From Escallonia rubra (Eukaryota > Streptophyta > Magnoliopsida > Escalloniales > Escalloniaceae): a stretch of 64,000 nt of DNA. Each line of letters opens with the position of its first letter. Position 1 is the first letter of the stretch. The position numbers were made by a program, and so were the translations under genes. The DNA lies in contig JAVXUO010003111.1 of assembly GCA_033065855.1 (NCBI GenBank), positions 44,834 through 108,833 of the forward strand. Reading direction: 5' to 3'. The notes beneath the pieces are model-generated. The model saw only the letters and a list, made by a program, of their open reading frames with translations, searched no databases and had not been told where the DNA came from. Below are positions 31,901 through 64,000 of this stretch, one piece after another.

Positions 31901-31914
31901 CGCCATTAGGCCTC

Positions 31915-41797: not shown

Positions 41798-41799
<2 letters not shown>

Positions 41800-42065
41800 G
41801 AGTTAGCAAAATAGGAGAAGTTGCAAGCGCGATCTGACCGTCCATCTTGAAAGATGGACGGCCCAGATCGCGCCTTTTTAAAAAACTGTCAGTCGTCCGC
41901 CATACAGTAACGCGGACGGTTTTTTTTTTACCTTTTTGCTCCTTCGCGCCTGTCCGCTACACTGTATGGCGGAGGACATTAAAGTCCTGATGGGAGACAG
42001 CAAAAAGACGTTCGCGATACAGTGTAACAGACATCCTCTAGGCTGACACCTGTCAGGGCCTATCC
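41798..42065. repeat. left terminal inverted repeat of giant MULE 1
   Basis: Pairs with the inverse of 58750-59043. It includes an internal inverted pair (CCGTCCATCTT and AAGATGGACGG) that can fold, and palindromes of the element family at 41895-41917 and 41952-41974. Confidence 0.85.
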
Positions 42066-42205
42066 CGTCGAAAGGGAAGAGAGTCTCTTGTCAGGTCCTG
42101 ATGGGAGACAGCAAAAAGACGTCCGCGATACTGTGTAGCGGACGTCCCCTAGGCTGACACCTGTCAGGGCCTGTCCCGTCGAAAGGGAAGAGAGTCTCTT
42201 GTCAG
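41984..42205. repeat. 111-bp direct duplication at the inner edge of the left TIR
   Basis: The segment starting GTCCTGATGGGAGACAGC occurs at 41984 and at 42095. Each copy contains one diverged palindrome and ends near CTCTTGTCAG. The right TIR has only one copy. Confidence 0.85.
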
Positions 42206-42765
42206 GTCTTTATTTCTGCACGTGTCAGTGTTGGGAATAATTTTTGCTATACAGTATCGCGGACATTACTTCCCATATACCCCAGAGTTCCCTAATTCTC
42301 AGCTCTTTCGGCAAAATTTTCTTCTCCTTCGGATTCACTTGCTTCCATTTTCGGCTGCCCTCAAGCTTCGAGTAACACTTGCTTCAATCTTCAGTCAAGC
42401 AAGGTTAGTTTCTGATCTCAAATATTTTCTGGGCAGATTGACTGATGAAGTATATATATTTTTTTTGGACAAAAAAGTATAGATTTTTTATGATGTTCTA
42501 GAAATTTGTCACTTTATTCATAAACTTGTGATGTTCTAGAAATTAATTTGGTAAGTTTAAAGAAGTTCATTGTAGTTAGGTTTGATTTTTTTGAAGTGAG
42601 CTAACTTCGGCACATGTATCCGATTTAAATTCGAATCTTTTGAGATACGTTTGTTGTATTTTGGCATGATAAATTTGTCTATTTATCTTAGTAATTTTAA
42701 TTTGTTATGTTCAATAAATCTATAATTAGCAAAATGGGAGACTTTTGAGATTATGTATATGGTAT

Positions 42766-44225
42766 TGTTAGCCATATGGTTGGATAACCTAGGCCTACAT
42801 CTTGTTTTGATGATAACTACACATTGATTATGTTCTAATGTGTGCTTTGAGTGTATTCTTAGTAGGTATATACATGCACACTCATGAAGACACATTTGAG
42901 AAGTTGGATAGATGGATTAAAGCCAAAGAAGCTTAAAGCTATGGTGACATGCTATGGAAGCTTCATCAAGTCCAATGTCAAAGAGCAAGAAAGAATGCAT
43001 CGGCTAAGTTACTATCGATTATAATTGATCTTTCCTATTATGTAACTAGTCTTGGTTTGATGCTTGGATAGATAACTATTACCTAAAAAGACCTTAGGAC
43101 ACCTTGTGCATTGCATGTGAGTTCATAACCTTTCACACGAGTGTGGTTCTTGAAAATGAGTGCACTTTGGAGCTCACTCAGATTTTCTCAAAACTGTTTT
43201 TGGTGCTAATCTTTTCATATCTTGATAAAACTTTTCATTAGCTTTCCAACGCAAAAAACGGCACCTTAATCCGATTTTTCTAGTGAAAGTTATGCCCACA
43301 ATAGGAAAGGGGGTTCCGTGAGGCAGCCGATAGGCAGTAGGGTATTACAGTCGACTGTAATTGAATAGAGTCGACTGCATTGGTCAATGCAGTCGACTGC
43401 ATTGGTCAAACTTCAGTTCCAACGGCTATTTCCGAGGACAAAACTCCAACGGCTATTTTTGAGGGATTACAGTCGACTGCATTGGTTACAGTCGACTGCA
43501 ATGGCAGTTTTGGCCATATTATGCCTAACGGCTATATTTGATCTCTTCTCTATATAAATGATTTTGGGCTTCATTATACATCATGGAAATCACATTCTAA
43601 GCCTACATTCATTAGAGAAGCATCAAGGCTCATAGATTAAACTTTTCTCTCTTCATCTTCATGATTTTACATCATTAAAGAGAGCATCTTTGTGAGCAAT
43701 TCTTTGATTGAGAGTGAGCATCCTTCAAGTCATCAATTCTCTCATCTCTCTATTGCACTAGAGCTTCATTTGTACTCATTTCCTTTCAAGAGGGTTTCTT
43801 TGTACACATTTGATCTTTGTAAAAGGATTGTGATCAAGGCTTGGGTTTGTCAAGTCTTGGGTGAGCTTTGTGGATTCAAGGCTTGTGCTTGGTGTGGGGA
43901 TATCACCAAGTGTTGTAAGGGTTTTGATCTTGACCCGGAAGAAGATTGTTGCTAGTGGATTCTAGTGCTCTTGCAAGGGACTTCCTTGAAGAGGTGGATG
44001 TAGGCTTGAGGGTATATCAAGCCGAACCATTTAAATCTCCTTGTCAAGTATCTCTAACTCAATCTCTTTACTTATTGCTCTTTAATTGTTTGAGATTGTT
44101 TAGTTAGCATCTTCATTGAAGTATTACTTGGTTTGTTTGAGATTTATGATTGTGCTTAGTTTAAATTCCCCATTATATTTCAAAAACCCTATTCACCCCC
44201 CTCTAGGGTTGTTTTATTGGTTTCA
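42766..44225 (+). repeat. 5' LTR of the Sirevirus-like element
   Basis: 1,460 bp, TG...CA ends. Contains the TATA box at 43551 and five AGTCGACT palindromes upstream of it. An 87-codon ORF at 43692-43955 is repeated in the other LTR but has no family resemblance, so I do not call it a gene. Confidence 0.95.
43349..43557 (+). promoter_or_regulatory. LTR promoter: five AGTCGACT palindromes plus TATA box
   Basis: AGTCGACT occurs at 43349, 43369, 43391, 43471 and 43490, and AACGGCTAT three times (about 43418, 43448 and 43527). The TATA box TATATAA is at 43551-43557. Clustered palindromic motifs 50-200 bp before a TATA box look like an enhancer; the binding factor is unknown. The cluster is preserved in the 3' LTR at 47635-47783. 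Confidence 0.6.
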
Positions 44226-44227
44226 AG

Positions 44228-44240
44228 TGGTATCAGAGCC
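44228..44240 (+). other. primer-binding site, initiator tRNA-Met
   Basis: TGGTATCAGAGCC begins two bases after the 5' LTR and is the usual plant Copia primer site complementary to tRNA-iMet. Confidence 0.9.
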
Positions 44241-44284
44241 TCGGCTCTTGATTTTTTGGTTAACACCTAGAGAGTTAAAAGATC

Positions 44285-45997
44285 ATGGGGTTTCCTAGTC
44301 TTGAGGGGAGTTCTATTACTAGGCCTCCACTTTTTGATGGGTCTTCATATAGTATATGGAAAATTAAGATGCGAGTATTTTTAGAATCTTTAGATTATGA
44401 AATGTGGGGAATTGTTGAAGATGGCCCTTATGTTCCAACCAAGAGGATTAGGAATAAGCTTGTGCCAAAGGAGAAATCCGAATTTAATGACTATGATAGA
44501 AATATGCTTTGCATGAATTCTAGAGCTAAGAATTGTCTTGTTTGTGCTCTAAACGCCAATGAACTCAATCGAGTTATTGCGTGTGATTCGGCTAAGAGTA
44601 TGTGGGATACACTTCAAGTCACTCATGAAGGGACTTCTCTTCTAAGAGATTCAAAGATGAATTTATGGCATAGAGAATATGAATTGTTTCAAATATTTTC
44701 CGATGAATCTATTATGGAAATGAATTTTCGTTTCATTAAAATTGTTAATACTTTGAAACAATTAGGAAAAGATTTCTCTAACGGTGATCTTGTGAGAAAG
44801 GTAATTAGGTCATTACCTAGAGAATGGAATGCAAAAATCACCGCACTTCAAGAATCAAAGGATTTTAATACCTTCCCGTTTGATGAATTAATTTGCTCAT
44901 TGATGACCTATGAAATGCAACTCGAATCATCCGGGCAAAAAGTTCCAAAGAAGAAGAAGAAGTGCATTGCTCTTAAAGCTTCATCAATGATGGATCAATC
45001 TTCAAGTGAAGAGGAAGAAGACTTGAATAACAAGGAGATAAACATACTTGCAAAGGAATTCAATGAGTTTCTCAAACTAAAGAAAGTTGGAAACTCACAC
45101 AAGAGCAAGAATGATTCAAGTGTAGAGATTACCTCATGGGAGAATAAGAAGAAGAAAGGGTCAAGAAAGAAGCACTCCATAAAGAGATCAATCGAAGCCA
45201 TTATTTGGAGCGATAATGACTCAAGTGGAGATGAATGTGGTGATTTCGATGATAGAGATTCAAATCTATGCTTCATGGCTCAAAAAGAAAATGAGGTAAA
45301 TTCTTCATATAGTGATAGTGATAGCAATTTTTCCAATGATGATATTTATGATGCTTACGCTCTTTTATACGAAGAATCCATGAAATTAGCCAAGAAAAAT
45401 TGTGCTTTGAAAAAACAAGTGCGTACGATTTCAAAAGAGCTAGATGACTTAAAAAGTGAAAATAATGAGTTGCATGCCAAGAATGAATGCATAACTAGCC
45501 ATTTATATGTGGAGAATGTGAATAATGATTTGGTTGAATTAATTGTTAACACTCCTAGCTCAAAACAAATCTCTTCCAAAACTTTGGCTTTAGAAAAACA
45601 AAATGAAGATTTACAAGTTGAGATTTGTGATTTAAGAAAATGTCTTGAAAAATTTGTTGATGGTCAAAACAATTTGGATGTCATGCTTGGACGCCAAAGA
45701 ATTGGCCTAAACAAAGGTGGTCTTGGATTAGATCCCATGGCCATGCCTCCTAAAGTTTTGCACCAACAAGCTAGGTTGAATATTCTTACAAAACGACCAA
45801 AGAACTATTGCACCCCATTTACACATTGTGGTTGGTGCAACAAGAAAGGACATATGACTAGTTATTGTCCTTGTAGAATTGTTTATGTTGGTTGTGTAAA
45901 GAAAATGTGGGTTGTTAAAGAATTTCATAATGTTGCTAAGACTAACACTCATGGACCCAAGAAAATGTGGGTACCAAAAGTTAGACCTAAATTGTAA
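44285..45997 (+). CDS. gag: Copia gag polyprotein (UBN2/DUF4219 type), no pol
   Basis: 570 codons starting MGFPSLEGSS. The N-terminal gag region has PPLFDGSSYSIWKIKM and FLESLDYEMWGIVEDG (DUF4219/UBN2 type), followed by SMWDTLQVTHEGT, VIRSLPREWNAKITAL and SLMTYEMQLES, a Lys/Ser/Glu-rich middle, and a coiled-coil region about residues 365-465. A zinc knuckle CGWCNKKGHMTSYC (CX2CX4HX4C) sits at about residues 515-530. The frame ends at 45997 with no protease after it; Sirevirus gag-pol would continue. Intact as gag, so it could form particles and package its own RNA. Confidence 0.9.
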   Translation: MGFPSLEGSSITRPPLFDGSSYSIWKIKMRVFLESLDYEMWGIVEDGPYVPTKRIRNKLVPKEKSEFNDYDRNMLCMNSRAKNCLVCALNANELNRVIACDSAKSMWDTLQVTHEGTSLLRDSKMNLWHREYELFQIFSDESIMEMNFRFIKIVNTLKQLGKDFSNGDLVRKVIRSLPREWNAKITALQESKDFNTFPFDELICSLMTYEMQLESSGQKVPKKKKKCIALKASSMMDQSSSEEEEDLNNKEINILAKEFNEFLKLKKVGNSHKSKNDSSVEITSWENKKKKGSRKKHSIKRSIEAIIWSDNDSSGDECGDFDDRDSNLCFMAQKENEVNSSYSDSDSNFSNDDIYDAYALLYEESMKLAKKNCALKKQVRTISKELDDLKSENNELHAKNECITSHLYVENVNNDLVELIVNTPSSKQISSKTLALEKQNEDLQVEICDLRKCLEKFVDGQNNLDVMLGRQRIGLNKGGLGLDPMAMPPKVLHQQARLNILTKRPKNYCTPFTHCGWCNKKGHMTSYCPCRIVYVGCVKKMWVVKEFHNVAKTNTHGPKKMWVPKVRPKL

Positions 45998-46079
45998 TTG
46001 TAGGTTGTTCAAGGTAAAGGCAAATAGCAACAAGGAGAAGGCTCCAAGAAAATTTTGAGAAGGAGGAGCAAAAAGCTAA

Positions 46080-47051
46080 ATCTTAAGGGGGAGTAAGCAT
46101 TCCGAGATTGGACATGCTACTTCAAATGAGGAGAGCCTCAAAGCTTGTCAAGAAAATGGACTTCAAGAATGATCACTCATGAGCTCAATTCCTTGGTAAT
46201 TCACCAAGAGGGTAAAACTTAATGATCTTCTCAACATTGTGCTATGTGCTAAACTTATATGTTATCAAGTATGCTTAAATTGTCAAATCTATAAATAGCT
46301 TGCTTGTTGAGAATTAATGTGAACCTTGCCGATGAATGGTCTTCTTGCACTTATATTGAAAATATTGATCGTTGATGACCATTATTCCCTTTGTGAAAAT
46401 TCCATGTTGAAATTATGTCATCTTAATGCTTCACAATGCAATTCATACACACACCCCTTTTGGTAATGCCAAAAAGGGAATATGACTCGGTTAGACATTC
46501 AGTTGTGTTTGTTTGATATTGTTGGCATGCATTGATTGAGGGGGAGCATACATTATGATGGAATATGCATAAGATAACTTGATAGGGGGAGCTTACATGC
46601 TTGAATCATATACTATCTTGTTACTCTTGAAATATGCATAAAATAGAAGAGATTATTGAGCTACATTGCATATCTTTCATTGGATCATGAAGGAACTCTT
46701 GATGTCATCAGTATGAGTTCATGAGTTATATGCACTTCACGCCATTATCTTGCTTATAACTATCTCTTCACACATGCATCTCTTTGTTGATGACAAAGGG
46801 GGAGAAATAATCTTAATTCTATATGCTATGTGATTGTGTGTTTTGAGAGAACATTAGAGGAAAAGCATATCTTGTTTTAGCTAGGGAAGCTAGCTACAAG
46901 CTTAATTGCTATATGAGATAAATTGACATATCTTGAGTATACAAGCAATGATTGAGTGTTCTATGTGAGATTGTTGTGCTTAATTGACTATCATATGATA
47001 CATCTTACCCTATATAGAATCAATGTTTGTCATCATCAAAAAGGGGGAGAT
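46080..47051 (+). other. multiple polypurine tracts of the Sirevirus-like element
   Basis: Between gag and the 3' LTR there is no coding frame, but GGGGGA tracts recur: TAAGGGGGAGTAAG (about 46084), GAGGGGGAGC (46539), ATAGGGGGAGC (46583), AAAGGGGGAGAAA (46797) and AAAAGGGGGAGA abutting the 3' LTR (47040-47051). The last is the functional plus-strand primer site. Repeated polypurine tracts are a known mark of Sireviruses. Confidence 0.75.
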
Positions 47052-48511
47052 TGTTAGCCATATGGTTGGATAACCTAGGCCTACATCTTGTTTTGATGAT
47101 AACTACACATTGATTATGTTCTAATGTGTGCTTTGAGTGTATTCTTAGTAGGTATATACATGCACACTCATGAAGACACATTTGAGAAGTTGGATAGATG
47201 GATTAAAGCCAAAGAAGCTTAAAGCTATGGTGACATGCTATGGAAGCTTCATCAAGTCCAATGTCAAAGAGCAAGAAAGAATGCATCGGCTAAGTTACTA
47301 TCGATTATAATTGATCTTTCCTATTATGTAACTAGTCTTGGTTTGATGCTTGGATAGATGACTATGACCTAAAAAGACCTTAGGACACCTTGTGCATTGC
47401 ATGTGAGTTCATAACCTTTCACACGAGTGTGGTTCTTGAAAATGAGTGAACTTTGGAGCTCACTCAGATTTTCTCAAAACTGTTTTTGGTGCTAATCTTT
47501 TCATATCTTGATAAAACTTTTCATTAGCTTTCCAACGCAAAAAACGGCACCTTAATCCGATTTTTCTAGTGAAAGTTATGCCCAAAATAGGAAAGGGGGT
47601 TCCGTGAGGCAGCCGATAGGCAGTAGGGTATTACAGTCGACTGTAATTGAATAGAGTCGACTGCATTGGTCAATGCAGTCGACTGCATTGGTCAAACTTC
47701 AGTTCCAACGGCTATTTCCGAGGACAAAACTCCAACGGCTATTTTTGAGGGATTACAGTCGACTGCATTGGTTACAGTCGACTGCAATGGCAGTTTTGGC
47801 CATATTATGCCTAACGGCTATATTTGATCTCTTCTCTATATAAATGATTTTGGGCTTCATTATACATCATGGAAATCACATTCTAAGCCTACATTCATTA
47901 GAGAAGCATCAAGGCTCATAGATTAAACTTTTCTCTCTTCATCTTCATGATTTTACATCATTAAAGAGAGCATCTTTGTGAGCAATTCTTTGATTGAGAG
48001 TGAGCATCCTTCAAGTCATCAATTCTCTCATCTCTCTATTGCACTAGAGCTTCATTTGTACTCATTTCCTTTCAAGAGGGTTTCTTTGTACACATTTGAT
48101 CTTTGTAAAAGGATTGTGATCAAGGCTTGGGTTTGTCAAGTCTTGGGTGAGCTTTGTGGATTCAAGGCTTGTGCTTGGTGTGGGGATATCACCAAGTGTT
48201 GTAAGGGTTTTGATCTTGACCCGGAAGAAGATTGTTGCTAGTGGATTCTAGTGCTCTTGCAAGGGACTTCCTTGAAGAGGTGGATGTAGGCTTGAGGGTA
48301 TATCAAGCCGAACCATTTAAATCTCCTTGTCAAGTATCTCTAACTCAATCTCTTTACTTATTGCTCTTTAATTGTTTGAGATTGTTTAGTTAGCATCTTC
48401 ATTGAAGTATTACTTGGTTTGTTTGAGATTTATGATTGTGCTTAGTTTAAATTCCCCATTATATTTCAAAAACCCTATTCACCCCCCTCTAGGGTTGTTT
48501 TATTGGTTTCA
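47052..48511 (+). repeat. 3' LTR of the Sirevirus-like element
   Basis: Same length as the 5' LTR, with about four substitutions (for example the regions matching 43071-43081, 43169 and 43309). Followed by the duplicated target GGTAT. Confidence 0.95.
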
Positions 48512-48619: not shown

Positions 48620-50927
48620 GTCTTGTTTCACAATATCTGATTTCGTGTCTAGCTCAAAACACCCCGGTAGATGCTAGTGATCCGTATCTAGGACGAACCT
48701 TGCAAACATTGGAGGAAGCTGGAGAATGTTTCCGAGCGTATTCATTGAGGGTTGGATTTGGCATTAGAATAAAAACTTCAAGAACGAGCAACGTAACGAA
48801 AAAGATATGCTCTCGCTTATACGAGTGCCATAGGGGCAGAAACCCAGTGCAAAATGAGACACGCGTAGGCAACGATGACAGTGATGACGAAATAGGATAT
48901 TCGCGCAGAAGACGGGACTTCTTTGTGCGTACGAATTGCAAGGTCAAGATGTTTGTAAGCCATAAATCAAAGTAAGATAATTGGCTTATTAGCAGCCTGG
49001 AACTGGCACACAATCACCCGTTAGTAACCCCTTCTAAGGTGAGTCAGATGCATCAACACAAGAAGATGGGTAAGGTCGCGAGGAGCCTAATTCACACAAT
49101 GAGCGATATGTGCTAGGACCTACCGACATGATTAATGTTCTTGCTGAACAGGCCGGGGGAATTCAAAATTTAAACTTTAACACGACAGACGTTCGTAACG
49201 CGGTCCGAACCCATAGACGAGCCGCGTATGACCTCAATGATGCTCAAGCCACAATGAGCCTATTGAAGCGGATGCAGATGGAGGACCCGCAGTTTACCTT
49301 CGATTATAAACTTGACGACGAGCATCGAGTTAGCACAATTTTTTGGGTCGACGGTCGTTCGAGGCTTGCTTATAAGCATTTTGGGGATGTCGTGACTTTC
49401 GACACCACATACCGTACCAACAAGTACTCGATGCCGTTTGCCCCTTTCACAGGGGTCAATCATCATTATCACTCCATCCTGTTCGGGTTCGCCTTGTTAA
49501 GGGACGAGAGCGAGAGTTCTTTTGAATGGTTGTTTAGGGCGTGGCTGGAAGCCATGAACTTCAAAGCACCCAACGTAATCATCACCGATCAAGATTTGGC
49601 AATGAAGAAGGCTATTGCCACCGTCTTCCCAGATACTCGACACAACTTGTGCACTTGGCACATAAGCAACAAATACCCCGAACGTTTGCATCACGTGTAC
49701 GCAAAGTTTCCAGACTTTAAACAGGATTTTGACACGTGCGTTAGCAAGTCGTTAACGATTGAGGAATTTGAGGAGAGGTGGGAAAAGCTTGTTGAGGATT
49801 ACTCATTGCAAGACAACGGGTGGCTCCAGCACTTGTACGAGCTCAAAGAGCAATGGATTGGCGTTTACACGAGGAGGCATTTTTCTACGGGCATGAAAAC
49901 GACGGGCATGAGTGAATCTATGAATGCCATGTTCGATAGTTACGTGGGTACCGCTACCAATTTGAAGAGTTTCGTCACATCCGCACAGAAAGCGGTTGCG
50001 TCGTTATTCGTGAAAGAAAGGGCTGCAGACTTTGCAACCACGTACAAACAGAGGAGAAGGTTGCTTGAGACCCCGCTGGAGCTGAACGGTGCCAAAGTCT
50101 ATACGAAGGAGATCTTCTTGCTATACCAAGTAGAGCTGCAGAAATCGGGACGATACTGTATAAACAAGGTGGCAGAAAAGTCTACGCGTGAGTACAAGGT
50201 TTATTCGCTCGTGAATGACCTCGTTCCTGAGAAGCTGCGCAGAATGTATACGGTGAGCCACGACACATTGACGGACTCGGTGACATGTGTTTGCAAGAAG
50301 TTTGAGTTCCATGGCATCCTGTGTAGACACATTCTGCGATTTTTCACCCAGAAGAATATCAGGACAATCCCCGATCAATACGTCTTGCCACGGTGGACGA
50401 AAGGTGCAAACAGGTTGCACGGTACCATTGCCTTTCCGGAGCACCCGTATACTGACTTTGAAGAATCAGAGACGTTGCGGTATAATCATCTGGTGACGAT
50501 GTTCACCCGTTTGTCCGTAAAGGCTGCTGCTACAATGGTCGGTTATAAACATCTCCTCGAGGTAGCTCAGCAGCAAGAGCCCATCGTCGACCAGTTGGAA
50601 GCAGCTTCCGTCACCAATCTAGTTGACACCGAGCCTACGACGGGGTCAGAAGATGACGAGCCGGGGGAGGAAGACGACAATGATATCCGGCCGTTGGATC
50701 CAATTATATCGCAAACGAAAGGCCGCAAGAGATCTACGCGGATGAAAAGCTCTATTGAAACGGCAACTCAACCTAAAAAGCTGCGAAGGTGTGCATTGTG
50801 CAACAAAATGACCGACCACGACAAGCGGAACCATTACAAGGCACTGGGGATAAGTTCAGGGGGTTTGCAAGACGGGGAAGAAGATGACGCCGAAGATGAG
50901 GACGAAGAAGCTGCAGTGGACCTTTAA
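48620..50927 (+). pseudogene. FAR1-type MULE transposase of element 1, broken
   Basis: Same gene as the copy at 59959. Leader exon ends at 42403 (CAAG before GTTAGT) and the acceptor TCTACATAG ends at 48619, so the intron now holds the whole LTR element. Three lesions are visible: the start ATG is ATA (48633-48635); a Gln codon is TAA (48973-48975, after the FAR1-like finger region); and one base is lost near 49105-49112, giving an early TAG. From 49110 to 50927 the frame is open and covers the DDE transposase core (FDTTYRTNKYS, IITDQDLAMKKAI), the SWIM finger (CVCKKFEFHGILCRH) and the acidic tail ending DEEAAVDL, which shows the native C-terminus. An in-frame upstream ATG (48586) does not rescue the later stops. 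Confidence 0.9.
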
Positions 50928-51057: not shown

Positions 51058-51424
51058 GTCCGTTATACAATGAAGCGGACGGATATGCAGAGCCCTAATT
51101 TTTTGGGGTTATTTTAAGTCCCTTATACAATGAAGGAAGCGGACGTTATGGCAAAAAACTTTTGGTCTTCATTTATGTCCGCTATACAATGTAGCGTCCG
51201 TCATCGCAGAAAAACTTTTGGTCTTCTTTTATGTCCGCTATACAATGTAGCGGACAACATCGTAGAAAAAACTTTTGGTCTTCTTTTATGTCCGCTATAC
51301 AATGTAGCGGACTGCATCGCGGAAAAACTTTTGGTTTTCTTCTATGTCCGCTATACAATGTAGCGGACGACATCGTAGAAAAACTTTTGGTCTTCTTTTA
51401 TGTCCGCTATATAATGTAGCGGAT
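51058..51424. repeat. 56-bp tandem array carrying the family palindrome
   Basis: The 23-bp palindrome (arms GTCCGCTA and TAGCGGAC, loop TACAATG) occurs at 51177, 51233, 51290, 51346 and 51402, spaced 56-57 bp, plus weaker copies at 51058 and about 51118. The spacer is AAAAACTTTTGGTCTTC-rich. The array begins about 130 bp after the transposase stop and ends about 180 bp before the B3 gene. Confidence 0.92.
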
Positions 51425-51602: not shown

Positions 51603-52074
51603 ATGGCTTTTGGATCGGAGACCACCTACGATTTTATTGGCAACTTGCACCTGGCAGGCAAACACTTTTTCAAAGTCATGATGCCGGGATTTGAGAATGA
51701 ACTTGTTGGCCATCCCTCTTTCTCTGTATTTTCTTGTGTTAAAAGTTTGATCTTTTGGTTAAAAACTAACCAATTTTTTGTATTGTGTTTGTTAGGACAT
51801 ACCGAAAGCGTTGACCAATCAATTTACAACAATTCATGACAGTGCAAGATTATATAGCCGCAGGGGGGCATGGCAGGTTGAAATCAAGCTGAAGCCCGGC
51901 CGACCCCAAAAAAAGTAATTCGCAGAGGGTTAGAACGTTTTCGTGCACCAGCATGGCCTCGAACTCGGGGACTTTGTAGTGTTTGAACACCTTGGGTGGT
52001 GGGATTTTCAAGTTGTAATCTTTGATTGGAGCGCTTGTGAAAAAAATTCTTTCCCCCAATGTGAACCCTAATTT
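51603..52074 (+). pseudogene. B3-domain protein gene of element 1, broken
   Basis: Matches the intact copy at 62936. Exon 1 is 51603-51704 (MAFGSETTYDFIG, HFFKVMMPGFENEL). The donor here is GTTGGC instead of GTATGC. Exon 2 would start at 51796. It carries two stops relative to element 2, TAA at 51916-51918 (for Gln) and TAG at 51931-51933 (for Trp), and a small indel near 52050. The remaining B3 residues (HGLELGDFVVFEHLGWWDFQVVIFD) are still readable. Confidence 0.88.
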
Positions 52075-52362
52075 ATTATTAATAAAAAAATTTATGTTCT
52101 TGTTCATTATGTTTCCAATTTTTTTCTCGCTTAATTGTGTCATTTGAGATTCCCTCGATATATTGAGATCGTTGATTGTGAATCGTACGTTATTTATTGT
52201 TTATCGATATTGAGATTGTTGATTCTGTCGCCAAAACAAGTCTTCGGGCGCCAATTTATTAAAACAGCATTATGCTACAATGTCGCTAAAACAAGTCTTC
52301 GGGCGCCAATTTATTAAAACTGCATTACGCTACAACGTCTAGCTCTACTATATAGCGGACAT

Positions 52363-52828: not shown

Positions 52829-52849
52829 AGCCTTAGAAGAACTCGATCT

Positions 52850-53665: not shown

Positions 53666-54100
53666 ATGGCAGGAGTTCCTGGGAGTTCTAGTATGCGGGG
53701 ACGTGAGACTGTGTGGTTGTTGTGTGAAAGGAACGACGACTACAAAGAAGTGAAGTACACGGATCCGAGAGAGTATTATTGCGGTTTACGGAGAGAATGG
53801 GCATATCGAGTTAAGGAATCAGAAGCACTACACCAAGATCTCACCACGCTGAGGGCACCTGTGCCGCAACGTCGTTCACTTAGTATGTCGAGGCGTAATG
53901 TTAAACAGTGTAAGAAAGCTGTGCGCCGAATTCGTATGGAGAATAACCGGATGTTGCTGCGTAAAAAACGATTTTACATGCTTCAACTTGCGGAAGAAAT
54001 GGCCGAGGCTAGTGGGAGGCACCTCAAATCAAACGAGAGAAACAATATTTTAACCAATGATCAGTACTTATCTGATGAGTATATGTCAAATGAAGAGTGA
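53666..54100 (+). CDS. small basic protein B, unknown function, paralogue of A
   Basis: 144 codons, ATG at 53666. No known domain. It reads YYCGLRREWAYRVKESEAL, then PVPQRRSLSMSRRNV, then AVRRIRMENNRMLLRKKR, with an acidic end (SDEYMSNEE). The order of blocks and the R-I-R-x-E-N-N-R-M core match protein A, so one gene arose from the other by inverted duplication. Both stay open while the other three genes of element 1 are broken. It may mean recent use, or chance on short frames. Confidence 0.65.
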   Translation: MAGVPGSSSMRGRETVWLLCERNDDYKEVKYTDPREYYCGLRREWAYRVKESEALHQDLTTLRAPVPQRRSLSMSRRNVKQCKKAVRRIRMENNRMLLRKKRFYMLQLAEEMAEASGRHLKSNERNNILTNDQYLSDEYMSNEE

Positions 54101-54224: not shown

Positions 54225-54545
54225 TACATCCGCCATACTATAAAGCGGACCTTCCAAACCTTGGCTTTTCTTTTATCCTATGCATGTTCGCTATATAGTA
54301 AAGCGAACCGCACAACAGAAAGAAGAAAGAGTCCCCCAACACTTAGTTTATGACCTTATCTATGTCCGCTATACTATATAGCGGACAGTCAAGCAGAAGG
54401 AAGAGTCAAGAACACTTAGTTTTTTTTTGGCCCTATCTATGTCCGCGATACGATATAGCGGACATTCAAGCAGAAGGAAGAGTCCCCAACACTTAGTTTT
54501 TTTTTTGCCCTATCTATGTCCGCTATACTATATAGCAGACAGTCC
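54225..54545. repeat. ~75-bp palindrome repeats after small gene B
   Basis: Palindromes lie at about 54230 (degenerate), 54288, 54365 (GTCCGCTATAC with TATAGCGGAC), 54441 and 54519, spaced about 75 bp. The spacer contains CAGAAGGAAGAGTC-type words and T-runs. It lies between the 3' ends of small gene B and the PMD-protease gene. Confidence 0.88.
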
Positions 54546-54765: not shown

Positions 54766-57700
54766 TCAATTGGGGCCCTCAGCCCATGCGGGATCCCCCT
54801 CGTTACACGGATTTACAATAAATCTAATAGCTCTAGGCAGGCCATTGATAATTTGCCAAGCCATCCTATACCTAAAACAGTCTATGCATTATTGGCTCCA
54901 GACGGTCTTCTTGAGGCTCTCAGACCGACAGATGTAATCCATGTACATGCAGACGAAGACGCCGCAGTCCGAGGAATTAAGTTGCTTGGGCCTACTCCTC
55001 TTCAATCGGAGAACAAGCTTCGTATCGACCGGTGCCCTCTCCCGGCGCTTACTATTGACCATGGCAGCAAATAGATTCTGCGAGAAACATAATAAGCATT
55101 AAACATTAAACATTAAACATTAAACATAGCAAACATAATAAGATTAATCAGTTCTACAATATGCAAGTTACAATAAGAAGTAAACATGATCTTACCATGG
55201 CATCCAACTGGCCTAAGCCTCGGTACATTTCAATCACACCCATCACGGGGTATCATCGTAGAGACTGTCGAGGACTGATACGGTCTTCGTTACCGGTTCA
55301 TAGCAAACCAAGTACCAGTGGGCATTCACTATAAATGGGATTAGAAACACGTCCGCCACACTTGCGCTCACTGGACTCGGCCGAGCAAGATATGCTTGTA
55401 GGTTAGCGGACGGTCTCCACTGGAGCTGGGCTTTCCCCTTTCTCGCTTGCTTCCTCGCCTTGTCCCAGTCACCCCACTCTTATATTAGGATGCCATGAAA
55501 GTAAGCATCGAGGATAAAAATGTGCGGACCGTAGTTAGGCTGCTCCCGACCTCTTTGCCTCAGAATTTGCACGTAGTGCGAGATGACAAAGTTGTCTAAC
55601 CAAATTCCCGGTGCCAGCGAGGACAGTTCGTTCCATGAGGCATTGTAATCCAAGCCTTGTGGGTGATCCACGTCATACGACACTCCGTCTGAGGGGGCCC
55701 GCTAAAATAACGGGCTCAGATTAGGTCATGTTTATGCGGCTTCAGGGGCCTGGCTGGATGCCCTTTCGGATATTGCCCTCGGGGGTCGACCGGTTGCTCT
55801 TGCCCTCCGCCGGGGGGCAAGAGCAACAGAAGAAATTGGCCTCCAACCAACGGATCGGCCGGCTGATAATTGCCTTCGGGGGCCCCGGCCGGCTGATAAT
55901 CGCCTTCGGGGACCCCGGCCGGCTGATATTGCTCGCCGGCCATTTCTTCTGCTGGCTGATATTGCCCTTCGGGGCCGCCAAGTGGTCCCGCCCACGGGAC
56001 AATGGGCAGTGCCTCGTTGAAACCGTAAGGCCAATCTTGTGTGACTTGATTATGAGAGAAAGGGTTGGGGTTCCGGGAACAAATTGAAGGTCGGGCCGCT
56101 GTAATCGGCCCACGACGCTTGAGCATGTCCCATCCCCGGTACATAGGGACCACCAACTCCCTGGCTCACCCCTGAAGCTTGCCCGGAGGGATCAACGTTA
56201 TACGGGCTGACGCCCGTATAACCCATTCCCGGGCTGTCGACCGAAGACTGTCCCGATGCTTGCCGCACAAAATTCCCGCAGCCTAAAGCCAGTGCAGCAG
56301 CCTGTTGGCGAAGATCCTCGCCCATTGCGCTCATCAGATCCTTCCGCTCACTCAACTTCTGGAAGAATGCAAGCGAGGCATTAACCTACATCCAAAGAGA
56401 TAACAAATAAGTAACTTTAATCAGACATTTATATTCAACACATTCAAGACAAGTCAGACTAGTTGGGCAACTTACGAGATTGTATGCCATACGCTCGTCG
56501 ATCTGATCCCTAGGCGCATACCTCTCCCCGCGTTCAAAGTTCACTGGGGCTACTCTCCTCCACGTGATGCGGTAGTACCACTATCGTACTATTCGATGCT
56601 GAGAATGGGGTCCTGCTTCGAGACGATGGCCGCCAGTGTGTCCTACCAAGAAGTCCAAAGCTCTAGTTCGGCCGCCAACAATTCTTGCGCATTGGCCTTG
56701 CCAAACCGCCCGACATCCGGTGGGTCCCTGTTAACCCTCATATCTGGGGCACCGGCTGGCAAACCCTGCTCCAACTCAAAATGGCGCATTGCTCGGTCTG
56801 GCAGCTGCCACTCTGCGACCTCGAAGTGGATGAGGGGTGTGCGCTGCAACCCGGAGAGCGTGAAGACGAACGACTCTTCTACCCGTCGCGCCAAACGTAT
56901 GTACGGTGCCCAACGCAATTGGCCCGGAGATAGGCGGTCAAACTCCCCTCGATAGTACGTGATGTTGTGATGGGGATCGACTCTCCTGCGGTAGTGGCTA
57001 TTCTTCCGGCTGTACTCCCAAGCACGCAACCGAGGCCACACTCTATCGGTTCCATCCCTACGCGTTGGTGCACCGGGAGCAAGGTGTTCATAAGACCACA
57101 CCTGAGAACATGGGCAAATTATATTTATATCGTCGATTCAACCAAAGCAAAAAAAAAAAAAGAGACAATAACGAAGACAGGATTTATATGATATACCTGC
57201 AATAGCGAGAGACATGCACATATGGCTTTGGAGTCGGGCCTCGTTGCCTTGTGCAATGCTCGGTACAGATACGAAAGAACCGCTGCACCCCATGCATAAT
57301 CTCCAACCTCCGCCAGGTTACCCAACAACGGTAAATATCTCACGCTGACCGTGTTCTTCGACGTCGTTGGGAATAATATTGCCCCCACCACCCACCAGAG
57401 GAAGGCTTGTGTGTACAGCACAAGGTCACGGCCCGTATAGTTTTCCGGCAAAACCCCGTAGGTATCTACCAACCACTTCAACTTGATACCACCACTGCTA
57501 AATTGATCCTGGGGTATCGAAGTTAAGAAGTCCCTAGCGGTTCTCTTATTCGTTGCTTCTGACGGAGGAGCAATTACCGGCCGCCCCGTCACCGGCAACC
57601 CTAAGATGAACCCTACATCTTCTAGGGTAATTGTCATCTCTCCGAGCGGGAAGTGAAACGTATTCGTTTCACTTCTCCACCTCTCAACAAGGGCACCTAT

Positions 57701-58016
57701 CAAGGCCCGGTCAAGCTGTTGAAATATCTGCCCATGCGTGAAAATCCCAAACCCAATTCCACGCAGTATCCTCTTCTGGGCGGTGTTCAGTTTCCACGAT
57801 GTGAACTCGCGAGATACTTCTACGGTGTTGAGAAGTTCTCTTTCCTACGAATTAATAAATACAATTTAAGCAAAACAAACGGTATATACAACGTTCGTAA
57901 GAATAAGAAAGTCGATAAATAATGTATCTTACTCCACCATCCCATATGAGCGTACTGATATGGTTGGCTTGGTCGTATAACACGGATGGGTCTTCTGGTC
58001 CAGGGTTAAATTCCAT
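54766..58016 (-). pseudogene. plant mobile domain (PMD) plus Ulp1-like C48 protease gene, degenerate
   Basis: Minus strand. Exon 1 58016-57933 starts MEFNPGPEDPSVLYDQAN and ends ISTLIWDGG; exon 2 57844-57197 has QLDRALIGALVERWRSET, FHFPLGEMTITLEDVGFILG and FLWWVVGAILFP; exon 3 begins 57101 (VWSYEHLAPG, RWAPYIRL). These are the plant mobile domain (MAIN/MAIL1-type, aminotransferase-like) in order. Stops lie near 56643 and 56590. Exon 4 from 56385 gives a Gly/Pro/Gln-rich linker with four YQPAG-type repeats and a frameshift near 56075. The same strand then reads a C48 cysteine protease: WLDNFVISHYVQIL (55600), NAHWYLVCYEPVTKTVSVLDSL (His and Asp of the triad, about 55260-55330) and, after an intron 55195-55078, NSSDCGVFVCMYMDYI (catalytic Cys, about 54950). 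Whether linker and protease form one transcript is inferred from order and strand. Confidence 0.82.
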
Positions 58017-58616: not shown

Positions 58617-58945
58617 CGTCTGCAATACAGTATCGCGGATGGCTATTACGTCCGCGATACAGTATCGCGGATGGCTATAACGTCCGCTACACTGTGTAGC
58701 GGACACTGTTGACGTGACATATAAGGACAAGATAACCGTCATTGCCGAAAAGGACTGACGGAACAGGCCCTGACAGGTGTCAGCCTAGGGGACGTCCGCT
58801 AAACTGTATCGCGGACGTCTTTTCGCTGTCTCCCATCAGGACTTTAATGTCCTCCGCCATACAGTGTAGCGGACAGGCGCGGAGGGACAAAAAGGTAAAA
58901 AACCCTGTCCGCGTTACTGTATGGCGGACGACTGACAGTTTTCGA
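58617..58945. repeat. palindromes at the right end of giant MULE 1
   Basis: Copies at about 58619 (degenerate), 58651 (GTCCGCGATACAGTATCGCGGAT), 58682 (GTCCGCTACACTGTGTAGCGGAC), 58794, 58851 and 58907. The last three lie within the right TIR and mirror those at 41895, 41952 and 42010 in the left TIR. The loop here is mostly TACAGT/ACACTG rather than TACAATG. Confidence 0.85.
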
Positions 58946-59040
58946 AAAAGGCGCGATCTGGGCCGTCCATCTTCCAGGATGGACGGCCAGATCGCACTAG
59001 CAACTTCTCCTATTTTGCTAGCGCTATCAACGGATCAGCT

Positions 59041-59043
<3 letters not shown>
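58750..59043. repeat. right terminal inverted repeat of giant MULE 1
   Basis: Inverse of 41798-42065, with 17 extra bases (around GCTATCAACGGATC) next to the terminal CTCCC. Contains the foldable pair CCGTCCATCTTCC and GGATGGACGG. Confidence 0.87.

Positions 59044-59080
<37 letters not shown>
59044..59080. repeat. (TA)n microsatellite shared by the two giant MULEs
   Basis: About 18 TA units lie directly between the inverted GGGAGCTGATCC termini of element 1 (ending 59043) and element 2 (starting 59081). Both elements therefore use the same TA tract as a flank. Confidence 0.92.
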
Positions 59081-59082
<2 letters not shown>

Positions 59083-59196
59083 GAGCTGATCCCTTGACAG
59101 CGCTGGCCAAATAGGATATCTTGCCAGCGCGATCTGGCCGTCCATCCCGAAGGGATGGACGGCCCAGATCATTTTTTTTTGCGGCGCTGTCAGTCG

Positions 59197-59414
59197 TCCG
59201 CTAGACTGTCTAGCGGACGGACCTTTTTACCATCTTGCCATCGCGAACCCGTCCGCTACACTGTGTAGCGGACGACATGGCAGGGGCCCACTGCTCCGAC
59301 AAAAAGTAGTCCGCCATACTGTCTAGCGGACGACTGTCATTCTGACACAATTCTGACTTGTGTGTACTTATTTCTGAACTGTCGGCAATGCTGTCCGCTA
59401 CACAGTATAGCGGA
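59197..59414. repeat. four palindromes in the left end of element 2
   Basis: GTCCGCTAGACTGTCTAGCGGAC (about 59196), GTCCGCTACACTGTGTAGCGGAC (about 59250), GTCCGCCATACTGTCTAGCGGAC-type (about 59310) and GTCCGCTACACAGTATAGCGGAC (about 59392). The loops differ between copies while the arms are kept. Confidence 0.88.
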
Positions 59415-59453
59415 CAGTATTGCCCATCCCCAAAACCTACTCAATTTTCTTTC

Positions 59454-59587
59454 AGCACAATTTTCTTCTCCTTCGGACATACTTCCATTTTCAGCTGCCT
59501 TCAAGCTTCGAGTAACACTTGCACAATTTTCTTCTCCTTCGGACATACTTCCATTTCCAGCTGCCTTCAAGCTTCGAGTAACACTTG
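59454..59587. repeat. 67-bp tandem duplication in the transposase leader exon
   Basis: CACAATTTTCTTCTCCTTCGG to GAGTAACACTTGC occurs twice in a row. Element 1 has one related copy at 42318-42382. Confidence 0.85.
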
Positions 59588-59958: not shown

Positions 59959-62751
59959 ATGTCTGATTTCGTGTCAAGCTCCAACGGCCCCGTAGATGCT
60001 AGTGATCCGTATCTAGGACGAACATTTGCTACGTTGGAAGAAGCTGAAGAATGTTTTCGAGCGTATTCATTGAGGGTTGGTTTTGGCATTAGAATAAAGA
60101 CTTCAAGAACGAGCACCATAACGAGAAAGATATGCTCTCGCTTATACGAGTGCCATAGGAGCAGAAACCCAGTGCAAAATGAGACACGCGTAGGCAATGA
60201 TGACAGTGATGACGAAATAGGATATCCGCGTAGAAGACGGGACTGCTTTGAGCGCACAAATTGCCAGGTCAAGATGTTCGTAAGCTACAAACCCAAACAA
60301 GACCATTGGCTTATTACCAGCCTGGAACTGGCACACAATCACCCGTTAGTAACCCCTTCTAAGGTGAGTCAGATGCATCAACACAAGAAGATGGGTAAGG
60401 TCGCAAGGAGCCTGATTCAGACAATGAGCAATGCGCGACTAGGACCTACCGACATGATTAATGTTCTTGCTGAACAGGCTGGGGGAATTCAAAATTTGAC
60501 CTTTAACACGACAGACGTTCGTAACGCGGTCCGAACCCATAGACGAGCCGCGTATGACCTCAATGATGCTCAAGCCACAATGAGCCTATTGAAACGGATG
60601 CAGATGGAGGACCCGCAGTTGACCTTCGATTATAAACTTGACGACGAGCATCGAGTTAGCACAATTTTTTGGGTCGACGGTCGTTCGAGGCTTGCTTATA
60701 AGCATTTTGGGGATGTCGTGACGTTCGACACCACATACCGTACCAACAAGTACTCGATGCCGTTCGCCCCTTTCACGGGGGTCAATCATCATTATCACTC
60801 CATCCTGTTCGGGTTCGCCTTGTTAAGGGACGAGACCGAGAGTTCTTTTGAATGGTTGTTTAGGACGTGGCTGGAAGCAATGAACTTCAAAGCACCCAAA
60901 GTGATCATCACCGATCAAGATTTGGCAATGAAGAAGGCTATTGCGACCGTCTTCCCAGACACTCGGCACAACTTGTGCACCTGGCACATAAGCAACAAAT
61001 ACCCGGAACGGCTGCATCACGTGTACGCAAAGTATCCAGACTTTAAACAGGATTTTGACAAGTGCGTCCTCAAGTCGTTAACGATTGAGGAATTCGAGGA
61101 GAGGTGGGAAAAGCTTGTTCGGGATTACTCATTGCAAGACAACGAGTGGCTCCAGCACTTGTACGAGCGCAAAGAGCAATGGATTGGCGTTTACACGAGG
61201 AGGTATTTTTCAGCGGGCATGAAAACGACGGGCAGGAGTGAATCCATGAATGCCACGTTCGATAGTTATGTGGGTACAGCTACCAATTTGAAGACTTTCG
61301 TTGCATCCGCACAAAAAGCGGTAGCTTCGTTGTTCGTAAAAGAAAGGGCTGCCGACTTTGCAACAACGTACAAACAAAGGAGAAGGTTGCTCGAGACCCC
61401 GCTGGAGCTGAACGGTGCCAAAGTCTATACGAAGGAGATCTTCTTGCTATACCAAGTAGAGCTGCAGAAATCGGGACGATACTGTATAAACAAGGTGGCA
61501 GAAAAGTCTACGCGTGAGTACAAGGTTTATTCGCTCGTGAATGACCTCGTTCCTGAGAAGCTGCGCAGAATGTATACGGTGAGCCACGACACATTGACGG
61601 ACTCGGTGACATGTGTTTGCAAGAAGTTTGAGTTCCATGGCATCCTGTGTAGACACGTTCTGCGGTTTTTCACCCAGAAGAATATCAGGACAATCCCCGA
61701 TAAATACGTCTTGCCACGGTGGACGAAAGGTGCAAACAGGTTGCACGGTACCATTTCCTTTCCGGAGCACGCGTATACTGACTTTGAAGAATCAGAGACG
61801 TTGCGGTATAATCATCTGGTGACGATGTTCACCCGTTTGTCCGTAAAGGGTGCTGCTACAATGGTCGGTTATAAACATCTCCTCGAGGTAGCTCAGCAAC
61901 AAGAGCCCATCGTCGACCAGTTGGAAGCAGCTTCAATCACCAACGCGGTTGACACCGAGCCTACGACGGGATCAGAAGACGACGAGCCGGGGGAGGAAGA
62001 CGACAATGATATCCGGCCGTTGGATCCAATTATATCGCAAACGAAAGGCCGCAAGAGATCTACGCGGATGAAAAGCTCTATTGAAACGGCAACTCAACCT
62101 AAAAAGCTGCGAAGGTGTGCATTGTGCAACAAAATGACTGACCACGACAAGCGGAACCATTACAAGGCACTGGGGATAAGTCCAGGGGGTTTGCAAGACG
62201 GGGAAGAAGATGACGCCGAAGATGAGGACGACAAGCTGCAGTGGACCTTTAATTTTTTGTATAAGTTTGACATTTGTAATAATTTTTATGGCAAGATAGG
62301 CATTTGTATTAGTTTGACATTTGTAATAATTTTTTACCTAATAAATTTTCGACCGAATACTGGAATGTTTTTACCATCTGATGGATGGATATGCAAGGAC
62401 CTAAATTTTTGGGGTTTTTTTAATTTTACGTCCGCTATACAATATAGCGGACGGCAGAGCAGAAACTTTTGGTTTTCATTTATGTCCGCGCTACTATATA
62501 GCGGCCGGAACAGCCCCATTTTACGTCCGCCATACAATATAGCGGACGGCAGAGCAGAAACTTTTGGTTTTCATTTATCTCCGCGCTACTATATAGCGGA
62601 CGGAACAGCAGGATTACGTCCGCCATACAATATAGCGGAGGGCAGAGCAGAAACTTTTGGACTTCATTTTACGTCCGCTATACAATGTAGCGGACGGCAT
62701 AGCAGTTCATTCGTTATCGACTTTTGGTCTTCTTTAATGTCCGCTATATAA
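59959..62751 (+). CDS. FAR1/FHY3-related MULE transposase of element 2
   Basis: The leader exon ends at 59609 (CAAG before GTAAGT); the intron acceptor TCTACACAG ends at 59945; the ATG at 59959 (MSDFVSSS) is chosen because it follows the acceptor, although the frame is open from 59914. Domains: FAR1 DNA-binding region about residues 24-130 (EECFRAYSLRVGFGIRIK, CQVKMFVSYKPK, LELAHNHPL), MULE transposase core about 245-345 (VTFDTTYRTN with the first Asp, IITDQDLAMKKAI with the second), SESMN downstream (candidate Glu), SWIM zinc finger about 552-571 (CVCKKFEFHGILCRHVLRFF), acidic tail and a CxxC element. It should cut the element's TIRs in the nucleus. Oddity: one base is lost near 62230 relative to element 1, so the natural end (EAAVDL) is bypassed and about 170 extra codons run into the palindrome array, ending at 62751. 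Core intact. Confidence 0.9.
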   Translation: MSDFVSSSNGPVDASDPYLGRTFATLEEAEECFRAYSLRVGFGIRIKTSRTSTITRKICSRLYECHRSRNPVQNETRVGNDDSDDEIGYPRRRRDCFERTNCQVKMFVSYKPKQDHWLITSLELAHNHPLVTPSKVSQMHQHKKMGKVARSLIQTMSNARLGPTDMINVLAEQAGGIQNLTFNTTDVRNAVRTHRRAAYDLNDAQATMSLLKRMQMEDPQLTFDYKLDDEHRVSTIFWVDGRSRLAYKHFGDVVTFDTTYRTNKYSMPFAPFTGVNHHYHSILFGFALLRDETESSFEWLFRTWLEAMNFKAPKVIITDQDLAMKKAIATVFPDTRHNLCTWHISNKYPERLHHVYAKYPDFKQDFDKCVLKSLTIEEFEERWEKLVRDYSLQDNEWLQHLYERKEQWIGVYTRRYFSAGMKTTGRSESMNATFDSYVGTATNLKTFVASAQKAVASLFVKERAADFATTYKQRRRLLETPLELNGAKVYTKEIFLLYQVELQKSGRYCINKVAEKSTREYKVYSLVNDLVPEKLRRMYTVSHDTLTDSVTCVCKKFEFHGILCRHVLRFFTQKNIRTIPDKYVLPRWTKGANRLHGTISFPEHAYTDFEESETLRYNHLVTMFTRLSVKGAATMVGYKHLLEVAQQQEPIVDQLEAASITNAVDTEPTTGSEDDEPGEEDDNDIRPLDPIISQTKGRKRSTRMKSSIETATQPKKLRRCALCNKMTDHDKRNHYKALGISPGGLQDGEEDDAEDEDDKLQWTFNFLYKFDICNNFYGKIGICISLTFVIIFYLINFRPNTGMFLPSDGWICKDLNFWGFFNFTSAIQYSGRQSRNFWFSFMSALLYSGRNSPILRPPYNIADGRAETFGFHLSPRYYIADGTAGLRPPYNIAEGRAETFGLHFTSAIQCSGRHSSSFVIDFWSSLMSAI

Positions 62752-62760
62752 TATAGCGGA
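62430..62760. repeat. palindrome array between transposase and B3 gene of element 2
   Basis: Copies at about 62430, 62485, 62526, 62580, 62617, 62672 and 62738, alternating GTCCGCTATACAATATAGCGGAC-type and GTCCGCGCTACTATATAGCGG-type. Spacers carry GGCAGAGCAGAAACTTTTGG. It is read in the extended transposase frame only because of the frameshift at about 62230. Confidence 0.9.
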
Positions 62761-62935
62761 GGGCTATATGATATATATTAATCATATCGGGCAATCGGCT
62801 GTTATCAGTCCTAACTGGGGGGCACTCTCTGTGTCTCGAACATCTAGCCCAGGCAACTACTCCATCTCCGGCGACCCACATCTCTGGTGACCCACAACTC
62901 CGGCGATAAACCGTCCCCCCTCAACGCCGACCTCA

Positions 62936-63416
62936 ATGGCTTCTGGATCGGAGACCACCTACGATTTTATTGGCAACTTGCACTTGGCAGGCAAACACTT
63001 TTTCAAAGTCATGATGCCGGGGTTTGAGAATGAACTTGTATGCCATCTATGTACTTTCGTGTGTTAAAGTTTTGATCTTTTGGTTAAAAACTAACCTATT
63101 TTTTGTGTATTGTGTTTGTTAGGACATACCGGAAGCCTTGACCAATCAATTTACAACAATTCATGACAGTGCAAGATTATATAGCCGCAAGGGGGCATGG
63201 CAGGTTGAAATCAAGCTGAAGCCCGGCCGACCCCAAAAAAAGCAATTCGCAGAGGGTTGGAACGTCTTCGTGCGCCAGCACGGCCTCGAACTCGGGGACT
63301 TTGTAGTGTTTGAACACCTTGGGTGGTGGGATTTTCAAGTTGTAATCTTTGATCGGAGCACTTGTGAAAAAATTTCTTTCCCCAATGTGAACCCTAATTT
63401 ATTATTAATAAAATAA
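62936..63416 (+). CDS. B3-domain DNA-binding protein of element 2, intact
   Basis: Two exons, 62936-63037 and 63123-63416 (GTATGC donor, TTGTTAG acceptor), give 131 residues. The protein is essentially a single B3 fold: HFFKVMMPGFENEL, DIPEALTNQF, WQVEIKLKPG, FAEGWNVFVRQHGLELGD, FVVFEHLGWWDFQVVIFD, as in plant REM-type B3 domains. B3 domains bind DNA in the major groove, so it is a nuclear DNA-binding protein. It sits between two palindrome arrays (62430-62760 and 63575 onward), which makes the palindrome its obvious candidate site (inference). Both coding exons are open and splice sites are canonical, in contrast to the element 1 copy. Confidence 0.88.
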
Positions 63417-63574
63417 TTTCTGTTCTTGTTGATTGTGTTTCGACATTTTTCCTCGCTTAATTGTGCTTAATTGTTTCGTTTGAGATTCCCTCGATATATT
63501 GAGATCGTTGATTGTGAGATCGTTGATTCTGAGATCGTTGATTGTGAATAGGACGATAATTGCAGAGATTTTAC

Positions 63575-63949
63575 GTCCGCCATACAATGTAGCGGACGGC
63601 ATATCAGACACTTTTTTCCGTCCGCTATACAATGTAGCGGACGGCCCAGCAGAAACTCCATCGACACTGGTCTTCATTTACGTCCGCTATACAATGTAGC
63701 GGACGGCGCAGAAACATTTGGTCTTCATTTTACGTCCGCCGTACAATGTAGCGGACGGCATAGACACTTTTTTACGTCCGCTATACAATGTAGCGGACGG
63801 TCCACAAATTCCACCCATCTACACTTACAAAATTTTGGTCTTCATTAACGTCCGCTATACAATGTAGCGGACGGCCCACGAGAAACTCCACCCCTCAACA
63901 CTTAGAAAAATTTGGTCGTCATTTACGTCCGCTATACAATGTAGCGGAC
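63575..63949. repeat. seven near-identical 23-bp palindromes at the window edge
   Basis: GTCCGC..TACAATGTAGCGGAC copies start at 63575, 63620, 63682, 63734, 63776, 63850 and 63927; spacings are 45, 62, 52, 42, 74 and 77 bp. Arms are 8+8 bp with a TACAATG loop, and variation is confined to two arm positions (CTAT, CCAT, CCGT). Spacers include AAATTTGGTC and CAGAAACTCCACCC words. It continues past the window. Confidence 0.93.
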
Positions 63950-64000
63950 GGCGCAGCAGAAACTCCACCCATCAACACTTAGAAAAATTTGGTCGTCATT

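Follow-up and report, generated by a model that had tools for sequence, protein, structure and literature searches.

A family of TIR-type Mutator-like elements in TA microsatellites of Escallonia rubra with B3, small-protein and PMD-C48 genes and a 23-bp palindrome

To our knowledge, detailed accounts of how plant transposons counteract silencing exist for very few systems, of which VANC is the main one. Here we describe two adjoining elements, E1 and E2, from a 64,000-nucleotide stretch of Escallonia rubra DNA (hereafter the window; C1985:44834-108833) belonging to an assembly of 566 Mb and 3,222 contigs. They are two types within one abundant family of Mutator-like elements (MULEs) which have terminal inverted repeats (TIRs) and insert into TA microsatellites, an anatomy that we consider firm. 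Besides a FAR1-type transposase gene, E1 carries a B3 gene, two genes for small proteins (SP1 and SP2), a gene in which a plant mobile domain (PMD) is fused to a C48 protease part (PMD-C48), and arrays of a 23-bp palindrome.

Several described systems share parts of this architecture; the comparisons refer to the accessible portions of the papers cited. MuTAnT and AutoMuTAnT of Medicago truncatula (PMC4486113) resemble the family in their Jittery-like transposase, their foldback-type long TIRs, their insertion into (TA)n and their ends, which open with a run of G. However, AutoMuTAnT, compared by description only, has 4.9 kb and one open reading frame whereas the present family is multi-gene, and B3, SP and PMD-C48 genes as well as palindrome arrays are absent from its description. 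Jittery of maize (PMC9569675) likewise combines MULE and SWIM domains with a FAR1 N-terminus and has TIRs about 200 bp long, but with 3.9 kb and a transposase only it differs from the elements studied here. TAFT (maize) and Micron (rice), as cited in PMC4486113, also insert into TA microsatellites, although no multi-gene element is mentioned for them there. VANDAL21 and VANDAL6 (PMC5735166, PMC10398659) are MULEs with several genes each, and VANC targets are, as here, family-specific short motifs in fast-changing noncoding tandem repeats. In contrast to the present family, VANDALs are non-TIR MULEs (PMC13317346), the VANC21 motif YAGTATTAY has one orientation (PMC5735166) instead of forming a 23-bp palindrome, and VANC action is experimental (PMC5735166, PMC10398659) whereas anti-silencing is here a proposal; VANC was set apart by description, and the term 'B3 domain' does not occur in the accessible text of these two VANC papers.

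The protease and PMD components have precedents as well. A PMD inside a MULE has been reported in PMC5418596, where MULE-captured PMD proteins were speculated to serve anti-silencing; in those MULEs, from grasses and Amborella, PMD-C is fused to the transposase, whereas here the PMD is part of a separate gene and fused to C48. Kaonashi/KIU and MULEs of melon, rice and grapevine (PMC13317346) carry an Ulp1-type protease as the present family does, but KIU is non-TIR and neither a PMD fusion nor B3 is described for any of these elements in the accessible text. In our best reading the family is a TA-targeting, Jittery/MuTAnT-like MULE of the TIR type that is neither MuTAnT as described nor VANDAL. 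No MULE with a B3 gene was seen in the literature searched (few subscription journals covered, Repbase not included); three papers listed there as containing 'B3 domain' deal, judging from their titles, with mapping or expression, and the accessible part of a review of MULE evolution (PMC6446971) mentions neither B3 domain, Ulp1, C48 nor TA repeat. The suggestion of an undescribed family, made in a preliminary description of this locus, agrees with that literature as far as it reaches.

Ends, target sites and copies

E1 (41798-59043) is a TIR-type MULE inside a (TA)n repeat (Table 1). Its TIRs align at 41804-42069 and 58757-59020 with 91% identity across 266 bp (88% when TA is counted), and (TA)n lies outside both ends, as had been described for an element of 17.2 kb. 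Across the same (TA)n a related element begins, also as claimed: the first bases of E2, GGGAGCTGATCC at 59081, are identical to the start of the E1 right end when read inward, and self-comparison of the window aligned E1 48512-52186 with E2 59840-63523 at 89% identity. The wording 'two giant multi-gene MULEs' stood for the gene content of E1 but only in part for its size, since 5.75 kb of it is a nested copia retrotransposon; E1 proper therefore measures 11.5 kb (11,500 bp after subtraction), and a single intact 17-kb element was ruled out. The E1 sequences that flank the insertion are almost contiguous in E2 (59756-59810, then from 59840). E2 is truncated by the contig end, which is the last base of the window, with only transposase and B3 visible before it; because the contig stops too early, the multi-gene label of E2 rests on its relative C1436, like which E2 may be of a three-gene type.

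When the same genome was searched with the TIRs, 40 of 2,543 candidates were scored and yielded 59 matches, from which five pairs and four single ends were fetched; two of these four, C533 and C1004, showed a second end. Four more copies were fetched via B3, one of them two-ended (C1436) and three cut by contig ends (C659, C1171 and C1762). The nine two-ended copies analysed, eight fetched ones plus E1, are thus a non-random sample. All nine have TIRs (257-294 bp aligned, 86-97% identity) and are flanked on both sides by TA runs no shorter than 11 bp; a preference for TA repeats is known from some MULEs. The length of the target site duplication (9 bp for MULEs) is unreadable because the flanks are TA repeats. 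Alignment placed a second element end across the same TA run in C887, and inspection by eye did so to the right of C1395, C1822 and C893; because it is repeated at several copies, abutment across one TA run is a habit of the family, in which TA repeats are re-used as landing places. In the B3 genome search, 28 of the best 150 of 1,972 candidate rows share a score of 203.7 bits, which suggests a recent burst. As the window ends at 64000 inside an E2 palindrome array, so the contigs of C659, C1171 and C1762 end inside the element, and the family may for this reason break assemblies.

Gene set and selection

The five-gene set, in the order transposase, B3, SP1, SP2 and PMD-C48, was found complete and with the same order and orientation in five of the nine two-ended copies (E1, C1395, C1822, C1961 and C533). 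Recurrence of the set in other copies had been named beforehand as the point on which the claim of one cargo-bearing element turned, and on these numbers that claim held. Conservation of the set held only in part, since SP1/SP2, B3 or both are missing from four of the nine: C893 and C1436 are without SP1/SP2, C1004 without B3, and C887 without B3 and SP1/SP2. Transposase and PMD-C48, present in all nine, are the standard genes of the family; a single-domain B3 protein, present in seven, usually accompanies them, and the SP1/SP2 pair belongs to E1-type elements. No two-ended copy (0/9) was stop-free in every exon present. C1436 is E2-like (91% identity to 59044-62640) and has a long palindrome array, with no SP match, at the position of SP1/SP2. 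At 20 further B3 loci, for which 2 kb downstream were fetched, SP1 and SP2 were both present in 10 and neither in 10. In C659 (L027 reverse complement 1932-6974) the SP1-SP2 module is tandemly duplicated (2.5 kb, 97.6% identity), giving four small-protein genes.

The gene calls of the preliminary description were mostly borne out, with FAR1-type transposase, B3 and PMD recognized by Pfam and the small proteins being paralogous (32% identity across 108 residues). The E2 transposase has FAR1, MULE and SWIM domains (MULE PF10551, E 3.8e-33), while in that of E1 the start codon is changed and the frame is broken by a nonsense codon (48973) and the loss of 1 bp near 49111-49113. The DDE residues of the transposase, picked like the C48 H/D/Q/C residues from known motifs, were kept among the copies covering them (D257 in 13/13, D319 in 12/13, E428 in 13/13). 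The E2 transposase frame departs from that of E1 by 1 bp shortly before its end and then continues to 62751, into the palindrome array. The B3 domain (PF02362) scored 37.6 bits against a cut-off of 30.1; a protein search with B3 returned a single match, Escallonia herrerae RJ639_046830, which is the closest named protein (89% across 91 residues of exon 2), and VRN1 was the sole match in a PDB search (E 0.03). Neither SP1 nor SP2 matched a Pfam family above cut-off, SP1 having one sub-threshold FAM167 match; a protein search with SP2 gave three candidates, none significant, and its fold, predicted from two sequences, consists of two long helices (mean pLDDT 55). As for the proposed PMD-C48 protease, the PMD part is clear (PF10536 on two exons, E 7e-51 and 3.1e-16), whereas Peptidase_C48 (PF02902) reached 15.9 bits against a cut-off of 20.7 on one exon piece alone, with catalytic H, D, Q and C retained in 13/13 copies. 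The closest named PMD protein is from E. rubra (95% identity) and supports the gene model because it reads through the positions of two E1 stops. A recent host-gene origin of PMD-C48 was rejected, non-Escallonia matches being 35-45% identical (120 of 210 listed).

We estimated the ratio of nonsynonymous to synonymous substitution rates (dN/dS) with intervals from a bootstrap over codons, not over the tree, excluding high-scoring segment pairs below 60% identity and gapped or stop codons. Pooled pairwise values were 0.41 (0.34-0.50) for the transposase and 0.55 (0.47-0.63) for PMD-C48. For SP1+SP2 the initial interval, from 10 copies each, included 1; after addition of 10 more loci, with identical SP sequences and coverage below 90% excluded, dN/dS dropped to 0.46 (0.30-0.73; 19 and 17 distinct sequences). 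When each distinct change was counted once, SP2 gave 0.53 (P 0.014) and SP1 0.66 (P 0.23). Stops were rare in the SP genes (SP1 in 2/20 copies, SP2 in 3/20). These values below 1 indicate that transposase, PMD-C48 and SP1+SP2 have probably been under purifying selection. Between E1 and E2, dN/dS was 0.22 (0.15-0.34) for the transposase and 0.35 (0.09-1.64), not significant, for B3. In a profile of 250-bp windows along eight aligned copies, divergence was 1.6-4.2% in the transposase, 2.4-4.0% in B3, 1.8-4.0% in SP1 and SP2 and 1.2-4.1% in most of PMD, rising to 8-12% in the left end and in two of the internal arrays; some noncoding stretches are low too (SP1-SP2 gap 2.8%, PMD upstream region 2.4-3.7%).

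Table 1. Coordinates of features of E1 and E2 in the window
Feature	Position	Strand	Basis or size
(TA)n left of E1	41742..41797		56 bp
E1 left TIR	41798..42069	+	inverted-repeat alignment
Five end-class palindromes, E1 left (41895, 41952, 42010, 42121, 42242)	41895..42264		motif scan
Nested Ty1/copia retrotransposon, foreign to MULE	42766..48511	+	long terminal repeats, target site duplication GGTAT, copia gag domain
E1 transposase, FAR1/MULE/SWIM type, broken	48633..50927	+	frame, copy comparison
Internal palindrome array, six sites, E1 transposase-B3 gap	51058..51424		motif scan
E1 B3 gene in two exons, with nonsense codons at 51916 and 51931	51603..52089	+	copy comparison
Internal palindrome, E1 B3-SP1 gap	52521..52543		motif scan
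SP1, 143 aa, open	52850..53281	-	frame, copy comparison
SP2, 144 aa, open, SP1 paralogue	53666..54100	+	frame, copy comparison
Internal palindrome array, five sites, E1 SP2-PMD gap	54228..54540		motif scan
PMD-C48 gene of several exons, E1 copy with stops	54888..58016	-	Pfam, copy comparison
Six end-class palindromes, E1 right	58618..58929		motif scan
E1 right TIR	58757..59043	-	inverted-repeat alignment
(TA)n common to E1 and E2	59044..59080		37 bp
E2 left end and its four end-class palindromes	59081..59420	+	sequence match, motif scan
E2 transposase, open	59959..62229	+	frame, Pfam
E2 internal palindrome array, seven sites	62430..62761		motif scan
E2 B3 gene, open frame of 131 aa in exons 62936-63037 and 63123-63416	62936..63416	+	Pfam
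E2 second internal array, seven sites, reaching contig end	63575..64000		motif scan

The long terminal repeats of the nested copia (42764-44228 and 47050-48514) are 99.66% identical; it is young and contains gag, with merely 2.8 kb between the repeats, and is probably internally deleted. Between B3 and SP1, 52361-52493 and 52696-52828 form a 133-bp inverted repeat (95.5% identity), with matching stretches in C659 and C1171, that could fold into a long RNA hairpin. Outside the MULEs, the window contains a tandem 1.3-kb direct duplication (31905-34542, 96.6% identity) and a 388-aa open frame (13461-14627), by eye like a hAT-type transposase.

The 23-bp palindrome

The palindromes attributed earlier to the elements were confirmed: 41 sites (78 strand matches) were found in the window compared to a shuffle mean of 0.02, all of them within E1 or E2, with the nested copia free of sites. 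When scored by arm bases, 41 matches in the elements agree at 10 or more of the 12, and 39 of these are noncoding (P 1e-11 assuming independent sites, which tandem duplication violates); the two coding ones are a single weak match shared by the two transposase genes, and a further weak match falls beyond the elements. Across the nine two-ended copies, a symmetric centre C11/G13 was present in 81 of 89 near-end sites (8-11 per copy) and in none of 151 internal sites. The size of the internal arrays varies; in the SP2-PMD-C48 gap, for instance, E1 has 5 sites and C1822 has 13. Genome-wide, the fixed-half-site pattern gave 8,641 and 8,997 strand matches whereas the reversed control gave 0 and 0; because one site can match one strand or both, this means between 8,997 and 17,638 sites. 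Among the genome matches listed there were nine clusters and no lone site. Dividing the total by the 14.0 exact strand matches of a two-ended copy gives about 1,260 element equivalents, as an arithmetic guide only.

In the left half, bases 1-6, 8, 10 and 11 are conserved, whereas base 7 (and base 9 near the ends) varies without compensation. Positions 7/17 form a Watson-Crick pair in only 5/15 end-class sites and positions 11/13 in 2/26 internal sites, and neither pairing nor covariation was higher than in shuffles (201/500 and 100/500 shuffles as high; 35 of the 41 sites tested, the omitted 6 being identical to included ones). Since covariation does not exceed that of shuffles, protein contacts are favoured over a hairpin, and we read the conservation pattern as reflecting base contacts by a putative dimeric protein.

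Possible roles and alternatives

We tentatively lean towards a role in anti-silencing with B3 as palindrome binder, PMD-C48 as effector and SP1/SP2 as optional partners. A self-encoded protein, most likely B3, would bind the palindrome via two GTCCGCnAnAC half-sites; the internal arrays in the gene gaps would bring this binder to the promoters of the element, where it would keep the element genes active against host silencing, and PMD-C48, with a chromatin-type domain and an Ulp1-type protease, would act as effector. The symmetric near-end sites, about ten per copy, would serve the ends, probably as sites of the transposase or an end complex. B3 is preferred as binder and PMD-C48 as effector because of the VANC-like layout of the motif, the single-domain nature of the DNA-binding protein and the published speculation on PMD, and SP1/SP2 are unlikely as main binder because C1436 has 27 palindrome sites and no SP match. 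Several observations weigh against this proposal. B3 dN/dS was indistinguishable from 1 (0.77, 0.49-1.22; 0.70, 0.37-1.36, minus two broken copies), and C887 and C1004 retain palindromes without B3, though B3 could act in trans. The C48 part is less conserved, with 5-8% divergence and no valley. Among one-ended copies, for which 15 kb were fetched, C2035 has transposase, B3, SP1 and SP2 but no PMD-C48, and C983 has PMD-C48 alone. In E. herrerae, the locus tags of B3 (046830) and PMD (030248, 012780) are non-adjacent, and these annotated copies may lie outside MULEs. Moreover, the internal arrays may stem from one founder unit, and the FAR1 domain of the transposase could itself be the palindrome binder.

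This last point makes the transposase a close rival of B3. It is quite possible that FAR1 binding to the TIR sites serves transposition and its binding to the internal arrays autoregulation, with B3 and PMD-C48 otherwise employed: the palindromes are accompanied by the transposase in each of the nine two-ended copies but by B3 in only seven, and the number of near-end sites is fixed. On the other hand, none of the internal sites shares the centre of the end sites, which suggests a second reader, and as many as 13 sites between two genes (C1822) are unneeded for end binding. That the arrays are passive, produced by tandem expansion of a founder unit with an end-like palindrome and devoid of regulatory function, would fit with array units being tandem repeats with common flanking sequence and with the differing array lengths; we consider it unlikely, however, as half-site bases are conserved although divergence along the element is highest in the array regions taken as a whole, and arrays occupy three separate gene gaps. 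The near-palindromic sequence in intergenic, probably transcribed flanks might also point to RNA hairpins or cruciforms, for example as small-RNA sources or terminators, but this is improbable: because of the unpaired positions and of covariation within the shuffle range, we rejected hairpin selection on the palindromes. Least credible of all is that captured genes came together in one element by chance. Gene capture by MULEs is known, and the transposase, B3 and PMD-C48 of E1 are all broken; even so, the recurrence of the same genes, order and orientation among copies, together with dN/dS below 1, led us to rule it out.

Returning to B3 as binder, a wider proposal, which we regard as speculative, is that the family has separately assembled a second MULE anti-silencing system. 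B3 would read the palindrome at 8,997 places at least and deliver PMD-C48, with SP1/SP2 optional, to undo silencing, and the change at the centre would split sites for ends and transposition from array sites for activation.

The family is a second candidate anti-silencing system besides VANC, one that differs in its DNA-binding fold, includes a PMD protein and has a target site both long and clear. The anti-silencing role speculated for PMD proteins of MULEs (PMC5418596) thus becomes directly testable. The family is large, all insertions studied lie in TA microsatellites, and the two classes of palindrome sites may separate transposition from regulation. The thousands of genome copies of the element's own palindrome suggest a self-contained control system, perhaps one for escaping host silencing.

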